38,871 nucleotides of DNA from assembly GCF_030537745.1 (NCBI RefSeq), contig NZ_JAUNVI010000029.1, forward strand, positions 1 through 38,871, given 5' to 3'. Below, one piece after another: positions 1,948 to 22,364 of this stretch. Numbering within the stretch: the stretch's first letter is position 1; every line of letters begins with the position of its first letter. A program made the position numbers and the translations under genes. The notes under the pieces were generated by a model that was not told where the DNA came from, ran no database searches, and saw only the letters and a program-made list of their open reading frames with translations. Source of the stretch: Ornithinimicrobium sp. (lineage in GTDB: Bacteria > Actinomycetota > Actinomycetes > Actinomycetales > Dermatophilaceae).

Positions 1948-3723
1948 GTGATCAGGCTGCTGCGGGCTCTGCGCCAGCTCCTACCGTTGCTGCCGCCATC
2001 AACTCGGTGGTTCTTGATCGGCTTCGCCGTCGTCTCCAGCCTGCTGGCGATCATCGATATTGCCGCGCTGGCGATGCTCGCGCTGACGCTCGCCCCGATG
2101 ATCCAGGGCCAACCGGTCAACCTTCCGGTGTTCGGCACCGTGCCATCGGAGCGCTACGCCTGGTTGCTCAGCGGCATTTGCCTCCTGGTCATCGCCAAGG
2201 GGCTGGCGACCCTCATCCTGCAGTGGGTGGTCGCGAAACGGTTGACGACCTACGACCTCGTCATCGGCGACCGGCTCTTTGGCGCCTACATCCGGGCCCC
2301 GTGGACCGAGCGGCTCAAGCGCAACACCTCCGAGCTGGTGAGGTTGGCCGACGTCGGCATCGCCAACACCACCACCGGCCTGCTGCTGCCGGCCGCCTCG
2401 CTCCCCGCCGAGATGGCGACCTTCGCCGCGGTCCTGGTGGTGCTGCTCGTCGCCCAGCCGCTCACCGCACTCATCACCTTCGCCTACCTCGGCGGCCTCG
2501 CCGTCCTGATGTATGTCGTGATCTCACCACGGGCGGTCGTCGCCGGCCGGGTGGGGCGCGACTACTCCTTCAAGGTCGCCGGGCTGATGACCGAGATGAT
2601 GGGAGCCTTGAAGGAGGTCACCCTGCGCGGAAAGGCCGACGAACTCGTCAAGGAGGTCTACCGCAACCGGCTGCACGCGACCCGGGCACGCAGCCACCTC
2701 ATGTTTCTCAATGCGGTGCCCAAGTTCGTCACCGACACCGGCCTGGTCGTCGGGTTCGCGCTCGTCGGGGCGGTCGCCTACCTCTTCGGTGGCCCGGACC
2801 AGGCGTTCGAGGCGATCGCGCTCTTCGCCGTGGCCGGCATGCGGATGATCCCCAGCGTGAACCGTTTTCAGTCGATCATCACCCAGACCGCGTCGACGCT
2901 GCCGCACGCGGAGGCGGTCATCCGCGACATCGTCTCGGCCCGGAGCTACGTCGAGTCGGCCGAGCAGCTCGGCCAGGACCCCCTGCCCGCCGACCCCCAG
3001 CACCTCGTGCTCCGCGACGTCGCCTTCACCTACCCAGGCTCCGCGGAGCCCGCGCTGCACGACGTGGACCTCGACATACCGCTGGGGACCTCCCTGGCGC
3101 TGGTCGGCGCATCCGGGGCCGGCAAGTCGACCCTCGTCGACGTCCTGCTCGGGCTGCTCGTCCCCCAGACGGGGGAGTTGGCGATCGACGGTCAGCCGCT
3201 GGCGGACGTGCTCGCTGCCTGGCGCTCCCGCGTCGGTTATGTGCCGCAGGAGGTCAACCTCTTTGACGGGACCGTCGCCCAGAATGTCGCCCTGACCTGG
3301 GGCGATGACGTGGACGAGGACCGGGTGATGCGAGCGTTGGAGCGCGCCCAGCTCACCGAGGTCGTCGCTGGACGGGGCGGACTGCAGACGCGCATCGCCG
3401 AGCGGGGACTGGCGCTCTCGGGTGGGCAGCGGCAACGGCTGGGGATCGCCAGGGCACTGTATGGCGATCCGCTGGTGCTCGTGCTCGACGAGGCCACCTC
3501 GGCGCTCGACACCGCGACCGAGGATGCCGTCTCCCGCGCCATCCGTGAGCTGCGCGGATCGGTCACCGTCATCGCGGTCGCGCACCGTCTCTCCACCGTG
3601 CGGCACTCCGACCAGGTGTGCTTCATGACGGGCGGCACGATCGCCGCCCGGGGCACCTTCGAGGAGGTCGTCGCCGCGCAGCCAGAGTTTGCGGTGCAGG
3701 CCAGGCTGTCAGGGCTGACATGA
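1948..3723 (+). CDS. ABC exporter, fused membrane and ATPase domains
   Basis: This 591-residue protein has an N-terminal membrane domain (about residues 1-320, five to six hydrophobic spans) and a C-terminal nucleotide-binding domain. The ATPase motifs are complete: Walker A GASGAGKST near residue 390, signature LSGGQRQRL near 490, Walker B LVLVLDEATSALD near 509, and switch histidine in AVAHRLST near 544. The half-transporter layout (one TMD plus one NBD, acting as a homodimer) matches lipid-linked oligosaccharide flippases such as PglK and MsbA. Given its glycosyltransferase neighbours it is inferred to move a lipid-linked glycan or glycopolymer precursor across the membrane. GTG at 1948 was chosen because AGGA lies seven bases upstream and the nearby ATGs are out of frame. 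Its stop overlaps the next start in an ATGA. Confidence 0.9.
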   Translation: MIRLLRALRQLLPLLPPSTRWFLIGFAVVSSLLAIIDIAALAMLALTLAPMIQGQPVNLPVFGTVPSERYAWLLSGICLLVIAKGLATLILQWVVAKRLTTYDLVIGDRLFGAYIRAPWTERLKRNTSELVRLADVGIANTTTGLLLPAASLPAEMATFAAVLVVLLVAQPLTALITFAYLGGLAVLMYVVISPRAVVAGRVGRDYSFKVAGLMTEMMGALKEVTLRGKADELVKEVYRNRLHATRARSHLMFLNAVPKFVTDTGLVVGFALVGAVAYLFGGPDQAFEAIALFAVAGMRMIPSVNRFQSIITQTASTLPHAEAVIRDIVSARSYVESAEQLGQDPLPADPQHLVLRDVAFTYPGSAEPALHDVDLDIPLGTSLALVGASGAGKSTLVDVLLGLLVPQTGELAIDGQPLADVLAAWRSRVGYVPQEVNLFDGTVAQNVALTWGDDVDEDRVMRALERAQLTEVVAGRGGLQTRIAERGLALSGGQRQRLGIARALYGDPLVLVLDEATSALDTATEDAVSRAIRELRGSVTVIAVAHRLSTVRHSDQVCFMTGGTIAARGTFEEVVAAQPEFAVQARLSGLT

Positions 3724-17977: not shown

Positions 17978-18003
17978 AGTTGACGCCATCCAGAGAGTCG
18001 GCC

Positions 18004-18798
18004 TCAGCGTCGCCGCAGCACGCCCAGTGGAGGCGGAGGCGGGGAAGGCTCACCCATCTCCTGGAATGGCGAAGCCCCGGCAATCAGCCGCCGGACCTGT
18101 GCGCTGCCGCGCCACATGGACGGAAAGCTCGCTCGCGCCGCTGCCCGCGTCATCCGCGCGTCGTCGAACCTCTGGTGGGAGGCCACCACCACGACATTGC
18201 CGAAGCTCTTGCCTTTCGCCACCTCGCGCAGCACCAGCTGCCCGACATGTTCGAAGCGGGTCGCGAGGGTTGCGCACAGCCTGGCGACCCAGCGCAGCGG
18301 TGGCGCGTCGGAGGCGTTGATCAGCAGCAACCCATCCCGAGCGAGGACGCGGTCCACCTCCCCCAGCCACCACGTCCCGACCAGGTCGCCGGGGACCTGG
18401 CCCTCGTCATATGCGTCGAGGACCACGACGTCGGCCGATCCGACCCTCAGCCCGCAGATGCCGACCTGTCCCGTTTGTGGCCGCACCCGGATGCGGTGGC
18501 CCCGGGGCAGCGGCAGCTCCTTGCGCACCAGGTCGGTCAGCGCGACGTCAGGCTCGAGCACGATCTGCGGGGAGCCAGGGTGGACGTGGTGCACCCATCG
18601 CGGCAACGTCATACCTGCGCCGCCGACGTGCGTGATGGCTAACGGTGCCGGGTCCGGTCGAAGGGTCTCCAGCACGAGGGCGAAGTGCTCGACGTACTCG
18701 AAGACGAGCAGCAAGGGGTCGTCCGGGTCGACATACGACTGCGGGTGCCCGTCCCGCTCGATCGTGGCGCCGCCGTGCTGGTCCCAGGAGATGCTCAT
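18004..18798 (-). CDS. Spermidine-synthase-fold (SAM-type Rossmann) protein
   Basis: This 264-residue protein resembles the spermidine/spermine synthase family. It has a glycine-rich motif ITHVGGAGMTLPRW near residue 55-68, an acidic residue closing strand 2 (VLEPDVALTD), and ADVVVLDAYDEGQVP near 123-137, where classic enzymes have the catalytic Asp of a D-x-S/T-D-P motif. The substrate loop DAYDEG differs from true polyamine synthases, so aminopropyl transfer is uncertain; an orphan methyltransferase-like role is equally possible. No decarboxylase or other polyamine gene is nearby. The C terminus has a run of five prolines followed by an Arg-rich end. It lies 72 bases downstream of the HTH-MurA gene on the same strand. 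Confidence 0.75.
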   Translation of the reverse strand: MSISWDQHGGATIERDGHPQSYVDPDDPLLLVFEYVEHFALVLETLRPDPAPLAITHVGGAGMTLPRWVHHVHPGSPQIVLEPDVALTDLVRKELPLPRGHRIRVRPQTGQVGICGLRVGSADVVVLDAYDEGQVPGDLVGTWWLGEVDRVLARDGLLLINASDAPPLRWVARLCATLATRFEHVGQLVLREVAKGKSFGNVVVVASHQRFDDARMTRAAARASFPSMWRGSAQVRRLIAGASPFQEMGEPSPPPPPLGVLRRR

Positions 18799-18870
18799 GC
18801 GCGGCTGCTCACTGCGGTTCCACTCCTGCCGACGTCGATCGTGAGGCGATCGTTGCCCCGCGGCAGCTCT

Positions 18871-20400
18871 CTAGATGTCGCGGAAGGTCTGGATGCCGGC
18901 GCCCAGGTTGTTGAGACGGGTCGCCAGGTCCTCATAGCCCCGGTTGATGACGTAGACGTTGCGGAGCACGGACACGCCCGGCGCAGCGAGCATCGCGAGC
19001 AGGATGACGACGCCGGGCCGGAGCGCGGGCGGGCACATGATCTCACCGGCGCGCCACTTGGTCGGTCCTTCGATCATCACCCGGTGCGGGTCCATGAGGT
19101 GGACCTTGGCGCCCAGCGTGGTGAGCTCGGTCAGATAGATGGCGCGATTCTCATAGACCCAGTCGTGGATCAGCGTCGAACCCTGCGCGCACGCCGCGAT
19201 GATCGCGAAGAAGGGCAGGTTGTCGATGTTGAGGCCGGGGAAGGGCAGCGGGTGGATCTTGTCCAGCGGAGCCTTGAGCGGGCCGGGCGAGGTGGTGAGG
19301 TCGACGAGCCGGGTGTGCCCGTTGGCGGAGGTGTATTCCGGCGTCAGCGTGCACTCATAACCCATGGTGTCCAGGACCGCGAGCTCGATCTCCATGAACT
19401 CGATGGGCACCCTCTTGATGGTGATCTCGCTGCCGGTGACGACGGCAGCCGCCAGCAGGCTCATCGCCTCGATCGGGTCCTCGGAGGGGGAGTATTCGAT
19501 GTCTGCGTCGATGTGTTCGACCCCGGTCACCGTCAGCGTCGTGGTCCCCAGGCCCTCGATCTGGACGCCCAGCGCCTTGAGGAAGACGCACAGGTCCTGG
19601 ACCATGTAGTTGGAGGAGGCATTACGGATCACGGTGGTTCCGGGGTTGCGGGCGGCCGCGAGAAGGACGTTTTCCGTCACAGTGTCACCGCGCTCGGTGA
19701 GCACGATCGGCCGGGTCGGGGAGGTGCTGCGGTCCACGGAGGCGCGGTAGCTGCCGGTGGTCGCCGTCACGTCCAGGCCAAAATGTCTCAGCGCGATGAG
19801 GTGCGGCTCGACGGTGCGGGTGCCCAGGTCGCAACCACCGGCGTAGGGCAGCTCGAAGTTGTCGAACTCGTGCATGAGCGGGCCCAGGAACATGATGATC
19901 GTGCGCGTGCGACGGGCCGCGGACTCGTCGATCGTGCCCAGATCGATCTTCTCCGGAGGCGTGATCTCCAGGTCGGAGGAGTCCGGTAGCCAACGGATCT
20001 TGAAGCCGATGCTGGTGAGCACCTCGGTGATCCTGTTGACCTCCTCGATGCGGGCGAGATTGCGCAGGGTGGTCTTGCCCTTGTTGAGGATCGAGGCGCA
20101 CAGCAGCGCGACGGCGGCGTTCTTGGAGGTGCGCACGTCGATCTCGCCGGACAGCTTGACGCCGCCAGTGATCCGCAGGTTCTGCGGGACGCCTGAGGAG
20201 ACATGCACGATCTCAGAGTCCAGCTTTTCCCCGATGCGCGCGATCATCTCCAGGGAGAGGTTTTGCTTGCCCTGCTCGATGCGGGCGACGGCGCTCTGAC
20301 TGGTGCCCAGCAGACCCGCCAGCTCGGCCTGCGTGAGGTCTTTGTGGCGTCGCGCGTCCCGGATGAGACTGCCGATCCGGGACAGATAGCTCTCAGTCAT
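18871..20400 (-). CDS. murA: UDP-GlcNAc 1-carboxyvinyltransferase fused to an XRE helix-turn-helix
   Basis: This 509-residue protein has an XRE-type DNA-binding domain at residues 8-62 (RRHKDLTQAELAGLLGTSQS, then AVARIEQGKQ) and a MurA domain at about 72-505. MurA transfers enolpyruvate from PEP to UDP-GlcNAc, the first committed step of peptidoglycan synthesis. Active-site residues are kept: Lys93-Asn94 in TSKNAA, catalytic Cys190 in AGGCDLGTR, Asp393 in PGLNIDNLP, and Arg419 in YENRAIYLTEL. Canonical MurA is about 420 residues and lacks the HTH. The ATG at 20400 is chosen because TACAGT lies seven bases upstream as a -10 box; GTG at 20409 is the alternative. A palindrome in the promoter spacer suggests autoregulation. 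It may be a second MurA (whether another copy exists cannot be seen here). Confidence 0.9.
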   Translation of the reverse strand: MTESYLSRIGSLIRDARRHKDLTQAELAGLLGTSQSAVARIEQGKQNLSLEMIARIGEKLDSEIVHVSSGVPQNLRITGGVKLSGEIDVRTSKNAAVALLCASILNKGKTTLRNLARIEEVNRITEVLTSIGFKIRWLPDSSDLEITPPEKIDLGTIDESAARRTRTIIMFLGPLMHEFDNFELPYAGGCDLGTRTVEPHLIALRHFGLDVTATTGSYRASVDRSTSPTRPIVLTERGDTVTENVLLAAARNPGTTVIRNASSNYMVQDLCVFLKALGVQIEGLGTTTLTVTGVEHIDADIEYSPSEDPIEAMSLLAAAVVTGSEITIKRVPIEFMEIELAVLDTMGYECTLTPEYTSANGHTRLVDLTTSPGPLKAPLDKIHPLPFPGLNIDNLPFFAIIAACAQGSTLIHDWVYENRAIYLTELTTLGAKVHLMDPHRVMIEGPTKWRAGEIMCPPALRPGVVILLAMLAAPGVSVLRNVYVINRGYEDLATRLNNLGAGIQTFRDI

Positions 20401-20407
20401 GCCGACC

Positions 20408-20437
20408 ACTGTAGATCACATATATGAGATATGCCCA
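20408..20437 (-). promoter_or_regulatory. Promoter and candidate operator of the HTH-murA gene
   Basis: On the minus strand TACAGT (20408-20413) is seven bases before the ATG, and TGGGCA (20432-20437) is a fair -35. The spacer is filled by an AT-rich 16-bp palindrome at 20415-20430, atcacatatatgagat, with one mismatched pair. Binding here would block RNA polymerase. The XRE domain of the gene product is the natural candidate ligand. Confidence 0.55.
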
Positions 20438-20457
20438 CGCGTGTCAGTCGAGGCGGA

Positions 20458-21717
20458 TCACTGGTGTGCGTTGGCAGCCTCGACCAGGAGAGGGCCGACG
20501 AGCTCGCGCTGCCAAGGACGGGCACCAAGCTCGGCCAGTGCGGCGTCGACGGCCTGCAGTGTGGTCGGCTGTGGTGGTGACCACAGCAGGCGGCGCACCG
20601 TGTCAGGCGTCATCAGATTTTCGACCGGTATGTCGAGGCGTTCCGACAGGGCGGCCAGCTCACCTTTGACGAGCAGGAGCCGTTCGGCCGCGGCAGGGTC
20701 CCGATCGGCCCAGGCCCGGGCAGGAGGTGGCTGGTGCCCGCGAGGGGGAGCCTGGGGAAGCTCCTCCGGTGGCAGGTCAGCGGCCGTGCTGATCGCGGTC
20801 AGCCAGGTGCGCTGATAGCGGAGCAGCCCCTGCTCCGCGCGCCGCTGGCGGGACCGGGAACGGTCCGGGGTCGGCGCCGCCAGGCCGGAGGGCTGCAGGG
20901 GCATCCGGGCCGCCAGGTCCACCAGGGTGCTGTCGGGGACCACTCGGGTGCTCGCGACGTCTCGCTGGCGTGCGATCGCATCGCGCGCCTGCCAGAGCTC
21001 GCGAAGGGCCGCGTTGTGTCGCGGTGTGCGCAGCCGGTGTGAGCCGGTGGTGCGGCGCCATGGCTCGGTGTCCTTGGCCCGACGAGGCCCGGAGAATTCG
21101 GTGAGGGCTTGGAACTCCTGCCGCGCCCAGTCGAGTTTGCCCTGTTCCTGCAGATCCTGCTCGAGGCGGTCGCGCAGATCGACGAGCAGCTCCACGTCGA
21201 GGGCGGCATAACGCAGCCACGGCTCGGGCAGCGGCCGCGTGGACCAGTCGACCGCAGAGTGCTCCTTGGCGAGGGTGACGCCGAGGTAGTACTCCAGCGC
21301 CGAAGACAGCCCCACCCGGTGCAGGCCGGCCAGCCTCGAGCCAAGCTCCGTGTCGAAAAGTGCTTTCGGGTGTAGGCCGAGGTCGCTCAGGCACGGAAGG
21401 TCCTGCGTAGCGGCGTGCAGGACCCACTCTGGCCCGTCGAGTGCCTGCTGGAGGGGGGTCAGGTCAGTGAGCGGGACGGGATCGATCAACCAGGTGCCGG
21501 CACCGTGGCGGCGGACCTGGACGAGGTAGGCCTGCTGCCCGTAGCGGAACCCGGACGCCCGCTCGGCATCCACCGCGATCGGTCCCTCGCCCGCGGTGAG
21601 TGCCTCCGCGCAGTGGCGCAGGGCGACGTCGGTGTCAACGATCTCCGGGAGTCCCTCCGCAGGCTCCATCCGGCGGACGTAGTCCGAGAGCGGGTCGGGG
21701 TCGAGGTCTTCGGGCAC
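20458..21717 (-). CDS. rnd: Ribonuclease D (DEDD exonuclease with HRDC domain)
   Basis: This 419-residue 3'-5' exoribonuclease acts in tRNA and stable RNA 3' processing. The DEDD residues are visible: Asp and Glu in AVDAERASGFRYGQQAYL, Asp in ATQDLPCLSDLG, and the YAALDVELLVDL motif with its Tyr and final Asp. The exonuclease domain spans about residues 25-200. The C-terminal half includes an HRDC-like helical region and a divergent tail with MTPDTVRRLL. GTG at 21717 follows the DUF3000 stop by two bases; an internal ATG at 21669 is possible. Longer readings run inside DUF3000 and are not credible. Coupling with DUF3000 is a common actinobacterial arrangement. Confidence 0.9.
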   Translation of the reverse strand: MPEDLDPDPLSDYVRRMEPAEGLPEIVDTDVALRHCAEALTAGEGPIAVDAERASGFRYGQQAYLVQVRRHGAGTWLIDPVPLTDLTPLQQALDGPEWVLHAATQDLPCLSDLGLHPKALFDTELGSRLAGLHRVGLSSALEYYLGVTLAKEHSAVDWSTRPLPEPWLRYAALDVELLVDLRDRLEQDLQEQGKLDWARQEFQALTEFSGPRRAKDTEPWRRTTGSHRLRTPRHNAALRELWQARDAIARQRDVASTRVVPDSTLVDLAARMPLQPSGLAAPTPDRSRSRQRRAEQGLLRYQRTWLTAISTAADLPPEELPQAPPRGHQPPPARAWADRDPAAAERLLLVKGELAALSERLDIPVENLMTPDTVRRLLWSPPQPTTLQAVDAALAELGARPWQRELVGPLLVEAANAHQ

Positions 21718-21719
21718 GA

Positions 21720-22364
21720 TCAGCGACGCACTCCGGACAGCGGCACGACGCCTTCTGGCAGGGGCGGGAGGCCGGCCAGGGTGCATAGCAGGTCGCCCCA
21801 GGCGCCCAGGTGCGCGGTGAGCTCCTGCGCCTCGCGGCCAGCCACCAGGACCGGCGTCCAGGAGGCCCGAATCTCCAGGTCCACGGTGGGTTGGCGCTCC
21901 GAGAGGGCACCGAAACTCTCCGAGGTCACGCAGGTGACCGTGCCGGCCGGCGCGGCCCACTGGAGACCGGCGGCCTCCAGGGCATCGGTCAACCAGGACC
22001 ACCCGGCCGCCCCGGCGAGCGGGTCATGGCCGACCTCGGGCTCCATCTGGGCCTTGGCATAACTGACCACGCGCCAGGTGCCCTCCCAGGGCTCGGGGGC
22101 GGACGGGTCGTGCAGCAGGACGAAACGGCCGGTGGCCGCGGGGTCGTCATCGTCGACCAGATGAGAGGTCATGACCTCACCGGAGAGGGCGACGGCATGA
22201 GGGGCCAGGCGGGTGGGGGCCGGCACCTCATCGAGGATGAATTCGGGACGCACCGTGACCTCGCGCAGTCCGGCGATCGCTCGACCAAAGTAGGTGGTCT
22301 CGGGCGCAACAGCCCCGCTCGCGGACCGGGACCGCGAGCGCGACCCAGAGATCCGGCTCACCAC
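21720..22364 (-). CDS. DUF3000 family protein
   Basis: This 214-residue protein is of the actinobacterial DUF3000 family. Recognisable parts are FGRAIAGLREVTVRPEF near residue 26-42, PEPWEGTWRVVSYAKAQME near 90, and HDPLAGAAGWSWLTDAL. The function is unknown. It is acidic, with no membrane segment or signal peptide, so it is cytoplasmic. The start GTG at 22364 is preceded by a TACTCT -10 box exactly six bases upstream, giving a leaderless transcript that continues into RNase D. It is divergent from hemE, 70 bases away. Confidence 0.88.
   Translation of the reverse strand: MVSRISGSRSRSRSASGAVAPETTYFGRAIAGLREVTVRPEFILDEVPAPTRLAPHAVALSGEVMTSHLVDDDDPAATGRFVLLHDPSAPEPWEGTWRVVSYAKAQMEPEVGHDPLAGAAGWSWLTDALEAAGLQWAAPAGTVTCVTSESFGALSERQPTVDLEIRASWTPVLVAGREAQELTAHLGAWGDLLCTLAGLPPLPEGVVPLSGVRR

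Follow-up and report, generated by a model that had tools for sequence, protein, structure and literature searches.

A MurA enzyme with an N-terminal helix-turn-helix domain and a candidate operator in its own promoter in Ornithinimicrobium and other actinomycetes

MurA, which fosfomycin targets, is the gateway enzyme of peptidoglycan synthesis. In Ornithinimicrobium sp., a murA-like gene lies within a stretch of 38,871 nt (contig NZ_JAUNVI010000029.1), referred to here as the window. The gene is a minus-strand open reading frame (ORF) of 509 amino acids, with its ATG at 20400 and its stop codon at 18871–18873. A preliminary description had read it as a MurA fused to a complete XRE-type helix-turn-helix (HTH), and domain searches bore this out: within the one ORF, Pfam HTH_3 matched residues 13–62 (E 1.6e-11, 44.5 bits versus a gathering score of 23) and EPSP_synthase matched residues 78–494 (E 5.8e-44). 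A short linker joins the intact HTH to a divergent MurA domain. The features of the locus are:

18871..20400, minus strand: fusion gene xre-murA (509 codons and a stop); no other MurA-type gene was found in the genome
20215..20379, minus strand: Cro/C1-type (XRE) HTH domain, residues 8–62 (Pfam HTH_3 and HTH_31; NCBIfam TIGR03070 below its cut-off)
20269..20301, minus strand: predicted recognition helix, residues 34–44 (SQSAVARIEQG), in which residue 39 changes together with half-site base 3
18886..20181, minus strand: MurA enzyme domain, residues 74–505, with Lys93, Cys190, Asp393, Arg419 and Arg461
20412..20431, minus strand: candidate operator TATCTCATATATGTGATCTA, the only site in the genome at ≤3 mismatches
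20408..20413, minus strand: −10 element TACAGT, its TA being the outer TA of the candidate operator, 7 nt from the ATG

Two genes of the same orientation flank the fusion gene: 57 bp upstream lies one that resembles an RNase D/HRDC exonuclease (20458–22002, minus), and 72 bp downstream one that resembles a spermidine synthase (18004–18798, minus). Read-through from the RNase D-like gene could bypass the candidate operator.

The enzyme part scores above the cut-off of the NCBIfam MurA subfamily NF006873 (323.7 versus 297 bits) but below the stricter one of the murA equivalog TIGR01072 (310.3 versus 392.7), and is therefore a MurA of a divergent branch. Lys93, Cys190, Asp393 and Arg461 aligned with catalytic residues of solved MurAs, and these four plus Arg419 were invariant in alignments of 13 and of 20 orthologues. 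In E. coli numbering, we take the catalytic set to be Lys22, Cys115, Asp305 and Arg397, the last of which has its counterpart here in Arg461 of the ‘LR’ motif. The active site had initially been listed as Lys93, Cys190, Asp393 and Arg419; the first three stand, but Arg419 is the conserved arginine of an ‘ENR’ motif, and Arg461 is the arginine of the LR motif. Judged against solved structures and 19 canonical sequences, the columns of Lys93, Asn94, Arg166, Arg195, Asp393, Arg419 and Arg461 are conserved in fusion and canonical MurAs alike. The Cys190 column holds Cys in 220/220 fusion-branch proteins and Asp in 9/19 canonical ones, and the fusion branch also differs from these 19 by fixed substitutions, among them Asn264 in place of Glu and Pro458 in place of Asp. 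The fusion protein probably has MurA activity. Since its branch retains the Cys of the active site, these proteins would be expected to react with fosfomycin. One orthologue (L069) lacks the SKN motif, seemingly through a local frame disturbance.

A second, HTH-free murA was looked for in this and other genomes. The window's genome (3.03 Mb, 93.9% complete) contains two PF00275 genes, the fusion and one that reads as AroA, so that no second murA was found at this level of completeness. Among 58 genomes (this one and its relatives), AroA plus the fusion was also the set in most of those of the same genus. A canonical-type MurA match accompanied the fusion in G006, G010, G015, G019, G020 and G024 (judged by score, with the sequence read for G006), the fusion was seen in pieces in G003 and G009, and it was not seen in G005, which is 84% complete. 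As anticipated, XRE-MurA fusions occur elsewhere, in several actinomycete families; at least 583 relatives were confirmed, of which 80 were kept. Three larger samples, in which part of the candidates was scored in many genomes, gave the following picture. In the family sample, 138/149 genomes had a fusion-branch gene, one of them (G343) without the HTH, and the remaining 11/149 all belonged to one genus, g28; a second MurA-like match was present in 32 of the 138 and absent from 106, the two matches of G188 being two pieces of one gene. In the class sample (345 genomes), the fusion was found in 36/36 genomes of a Nocardioidaceae group (f24), and in 33 of the 36 it was the single match. In the phylum sample, it was found in 12/246 genomes, all of the same class; the other listed matches either start no earlier than query residue 32, mostly within 54–81, or represent the second part of a gene that is split, and therefore lack the HTH.

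We searched 27 genomes again in full, scoring all PF00275 candidates (20 of f24, two of f105 and five of f1, the window's family). In all 27, the complete set was one gene of the AroA type plus one of the fusion branch, with the latter in two pieces in G188. Since nothing else was found, the fusion branch presumably performs the MurA reaction in these lineages. Across Ornithinimicrobium, its family and one Nocardioidaceae group, most sampled genomes yielded no MurA other than the fusion.

Some genomes departed from this pattern. The 11 g28 genomes (e.g. G137) gave two matches each, with best E values of 8e-31 to 5e-50, and the three listed start at query residue 68–70. A frame change interrupts the fusion gene in G188 (L195), G003 (L070) and G645; no MurA besides the split gene was found in G188 and G003, and a sequencing error or a frameshift event are candidate causes. 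G006 carries, downstream of its intact gene, a degraded second fusion-type piece (L045, about 3223–3684) that covers query residues 328–490 at 76% identity and has one internal stop. In the canonical HTH-free MurA of the same genome (L072), Asp replaces the catalytic Cys (GGDPIGRR), and fosfomycin is not expected to inhibit a MurA of this kind.

Purifying selection acts on the HTH no less strongly than on the enzyme part. Across 27 sequences of the genus, dN/dS was 0.123 for the HTH, 0.072 for residues 33–47, 0.171 for MurA and 0.535 for the linker, and on these values we rejected a dead HTH. Among 39 orthologues, 17/55 HTH residues were invariant, including Thr33–Ala37, Arg40, Glu42 and Gly44. 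The length of the linker is nearly constant, with 28–30 residues between two landmarks in 213/220 proteins (one deviates and six were unmeasured). The closest NCBIfam HTH model is TIGR03070 (HipB/Y4mF-like antitoxin), at 52 bits against a cut-off of 71.65.

Inspection by eye revealed a palindrome directly before the start in 39/40 upstream stretches, the exception being L038. Its consensus is TATCTCA-N4-TGAGATA, and TATCTCA-N6-TGATCTA in the window's subclade. We scored the 14 positions of TATCTCA-N(2–6)-TGAGATA and obtained ≥11/14 matches in 213/220 distinct fusion loci with 13 family labels, which were assigned by hand from search tables; these loci are not independent, as 63 are labeled f21 (Streptomyces and kin) and some genomes enter twice under different names, with stretches that differ. 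When these upstream stretches were simply shuffled, 11/2200 shuffles reached this score, and a chance palindrome was rejected. Loci with <60 bases upstream, with <300 bits or with duplicate −60 to +200 stretches had been excluded before the count, as had L070 with its frame change, and the start of L193 was set by hand to the GTG at locus position 1260. No strong palindrome preceded the 19 canonical murA genes (best 7–11/14 within 300 bp, with one reaching 11), for which 300 bp upstream of the matched part was searched rather than 80.

The palindrome is built into a predicted promoter. A TANNNT −10 element uses the outer TA of the right half-site in 211/214 loci, and the start codon follows 6–8 nt further on in 200 of these 211; the −35 position shows a weak base preference. 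The palindrome therefore appears to occupy the spacer of the gene's own promoter. Given this distance, and the 7 nt between −10 element and ATG in the window, the transcript is probably near-leaderless. A sigma-70 scan and a terminator scan gave nothing at the gene start, and Rfam gave no match at gathering score in 18000–22100.

How many such sites does a genome contain? The genus-derived pattern ATCTCAN{2,4}TGNGATNTA matched 30 times in 58 genomes, once per genome, and 29 of the 30 matches lie before the fusion gene (the exception is in G021); the reversed pattern, used as a control, matched nowhere. The 28 genomes without a match include fusion-bearing ones whose site differs. In 29 chosen genomes (25 with and four without the fusion) searched at ≤1 mismatch, an exact site was present in 19, in all 19 only at the fusion promoter, and a one-mismatch site lay at the fusion promoter of G310, G443, G453 and G488. 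Two fusion-bearing genomes, G393 and G227, had no site at this threshold; both half-sites of G393 read TAACTCA. The four fusion-free genomes had no exact site, and two of them had a one-mismatch site. Further one-mismatch sites occurred in G443, G647, G208 and G237, and the control matched once overall. When up to three mismatches were allowed in five genomes of the genus, each had one site, always at the fusion promoter. Given this near-single site in the genomes searched, we rejected a wall-wide regulon. The proposed link to transcription seems narrower than implied: what the candidate sites suggest is self-regulation of murA rather than control of many wall genes.

Orthologues with an altered recognition helix had been named in the preliminary description as an observation that would speak against DNA binding. 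Such orthologues exist, and they have lost the palindrome as well. In G343 the HTH is gone, the gene starts MMGSSAPTDSEIVTV, Pfam detects the enzyme only, and the palindrome is missing; in G303, of the same genus, HTH and palindrome are both present. In three genomes of genus g29 (G188, G356 and G372), MTEQDIEQIESG, MTGTDIEQIEAG or MTETDIDRIEAG replaces TSQSAVARIEQG, and all three lack the palindrome. The rewritten HTH of g29 still passes the Pfam cut-off (L200: HTH_31, 35 bits) and may bind a different site. Changed or deleted, the HTH is accompanied by absence of the palindrome in both lineages, which supports the idea that it binds DNA.

Helix and palindrome also vary together where both are kept. 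We tabulated 214 loci, leaving out six that scored <10. Where residue 39 is Thr or Gly, base 3 of both half-sites is A in 9/10 loci, compared with 1/204 loci with other residues (Fisher p 5e-14, with kinship ignored); in 45 of these 204, a single half-site has A at base 3. Among the 66 HTH columns, mutual information with the base-3 class peaks at residue 39, in a calculation that makes no correction for kinship. This residue probably corresponds to Gln33 of the 434 repressor, a base-contacting residue. Kinship was addressed on a tree of the enzyme part (166 rows, keeping about every sixth f21 locus and leaving out proteins of <440 residues, L195 included). It yielded five supported independent pairs, of which four agreed while, on average, 0.2 disagreed and 0.8 showed no difference (sign test p 0.125); for losses of the HTH, 2/2 pairs agreed with loss of the palindrome. 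The matched changes of helix and palindrome thus rest on few independent events.

A further variation concerns the spacing. In 17 loci of the genus, among them the window and L113–L115, the half-sites are six apart rather than four, which an unchanged dimer should not tolerate easily. In the C-terminal part of the HTH, these loci share Ile53, Lys59 and, at position 66, either Gln or His, and the 6-bp spacing together with these residues may reflect a changed dimer. The spacer trait changes only twice on the tree.

Taken together, the promoter palindrome, its loss along with the HTH and the matched changes of helix and palindrome lend good support to the suggestion that this MurA would also be a sequence-specific DNA-binding protein. 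We consider it very probable, from this comparative evidence, that the bifunctional MurA is an autorepressor with a single target, whose HTH on the own-promoter palindrome holds the amount of MurA steady. The N-terminal Cro/C1-type HTH, presumably as a dimer, would bind TATCTCA-N4-TGAGATA (TATCTCA-N6-TGATCTA in the subclade). As the palindrome lies in the promoter spacer and overlaps the −10 element, its occupation would be expected to exclude RNA polymerase, which favors repression over activation. MurA would then repress murA, and murA transcription would be tied to the amount of MurA. This reading predicts an operator, a recognition residue at position 39 and a near-leaderless promoter. Counting against it, L038 and L139 keep the HTH with the usual recognition helix beside a degenerate palindrome (8/14 and 9/14), and the palindrome of L291 is weak at 10/14. 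Also on this side are the 6-bp spacing of the window's subclade, the few independent events behind the covariation, the frequent A in a single half-site with other residues at 39, the possible other site of the g29 helix and the lack of a site at ≤1 mismatch in fusion-bearing G227.

A stronger form of autorepression, in which the protein is a ligand-gated trigger enzyme, has nearly an even chance in our view. MurA closes upon substrate binding, and whether its active site is open or closed could alter the dimer geometry and DNA binding, with murA being derepressed when precursor flow drops or the enzyme is blocked. All evidence for autorepression applies here too, and the near-constant linker length suggests a fixed geometry; the linker sequence, as the least constrained part of the protein, fits a plain tether instead. 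UDP-GlcNAc or PEP, as had been proposed, and also fosfomycin might plausibly control DNA binding; speculatively, it might be tuned by active-site states that UDP-GlcNAc, PEP, UDP-MurNAc or a fosfomycin adduct set. MurA could even be a gauge of its own precursors, the occupancy by substrate, product or inhibitor deciding promoter occupancy, an idea that we hold tentatively and at slightly less than even chance. If it were true, wall-precursor flow and MurA-targeting antibiotics such as fosfomycin would be read out as murA transcription by the target enzyme itself, in a one-protein feedback loop at the entry to peptidoglycan synthesis that is conserved in several actinomycete families.

It is unlikely that a different XRE regulator binds the palindrome, or that the palindrome is a plain promoter element, with the HTH of MurA serving another role or none. 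Promoter palindromes are common targets of unrelated repressors, and other regulators have been placed upstream of Streptomyces murA2, in the form of BldM-WhiI footprints (PMC4125116, available text) and a predicted DmdR1 site (PMC12161575, available text). Against such a regulator stand the loss of the palindrome in the two lineages in which the HTH was deleted or rewritten, the covariation with residue 39, the near-single site per genome and the lack of a strong site before the 19 canonical murA genes. Activation of murA by the HTH, for example by aiding RNA polymerase, seems less probable still: the site accompanies a good −10 element, and steady expression would matter for a gene that is probably essential where it is the sole murA, but a site that, as here, sits within the spacer of the promoter and overlaps its −10 is typically that of a repressor. 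That the HTH is a decayed, antitoxin-like passenger of the enzyme with no DNA-binding function, a captured remnant being conceivable from its nearest NCBIfam model, is highly improbable given the low dN/dS of its recognition segment, the invariance of Thr33–Ala37, Arg40, Glu42 and Gly44, and the palindrome.

Autorepression of murA by MurA would, if true, control wall synthesis through a very short loop. It would operate where the fusion is the sole MurA found and, in Streptomyces, probably in the form of MurA2 (SCO5998/SVEN_5810). We identify the Streptomyces fusion most probably with MurA2 because an aconitase gene lies upstream of it, in opposite direction and 0.5–2.3 kb away, in 3/3 loci (L183, L172 and L155, one ORF tested each), just as SCO5999, which adjoins SCO5998, is given as an aconitase in the available text of PMC12161575. 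No aconitase was found among the ORFs tested at a further locus (L140). As far as the available texts of the respective papers go, MurA2 is described as a second MurA with BldM-WhiI footprints upstream of its gene (PMC4125116), murA2 is SigB-dependent (PMC8346170) and a predicted DmdR1 target (PMC12161575), and overexpression of MurA2 does not mimic the whiI-overexpression phenotype (PMC11005364). We considered whether the SigB-type promoter of SCO5998 is the palindrome promoter and rejected this: in 500 bp upstream of 60 loci (L133–L192), counted over the 53 with an exact palindrome pattern, GGGTAT occurred in 11, ten times at −166 to −239 and once at −8. The fusion differs from MurA2 as published in that the available accounts mention neither an HTH nor autoregulation. 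Our search of the open-access literature, with subscription papers and preprints outside its scope, returned no paper on an HTH in MurA or DNA binding by MurA, and neither is described in the available text of PMC12161575, PMC8346170, PMC4125116, PMC11005364, PMC3376134 and PMC4255298.

Compared with known systems, the fusion resembles canonical MurA (TIGR01072/NF006873) in that the catalytic residues are kept and its best solved relatives are MurAs; it differs by its N-terminal HTH, its score below the TIGR01072 cut-off and its fixed substitutions, such as Asn264 and Pro458. With HipB/Y4mF antitoxins it shares the Cro/C1-type HTH and, judging from the available text on HipB, which autoregulates via TATCCN8GGATA (PMC3376134), the 5 + 8 + 5 site layout, here TATCT-N8-AGATA. 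Here, however, the HTH is attached to an enzyme and stays below the TIGR03070 cut-off. Both adjacent genes, RNase D-like and spermidine synthase-like, are not toxin-like, and the fusion is thus not a member of this antitoxin group. The trigger enzymes PutA, BirA and NadR carry an HTH of their own and regulate their own pathway. Like them, the fusion combines an enzyme and a predicted DNA-binding regulator in one polypeptide; unlike them, it is built on MurA, and the only target found is its own gene. Enzymes that control their own pathway through an HTH are therefore known already, and what is new is the probable target of the HTH of MurA, a palindrome in its own promoter, and with it the place of the proposed self-control, at a central enzyme of wall synthesis.
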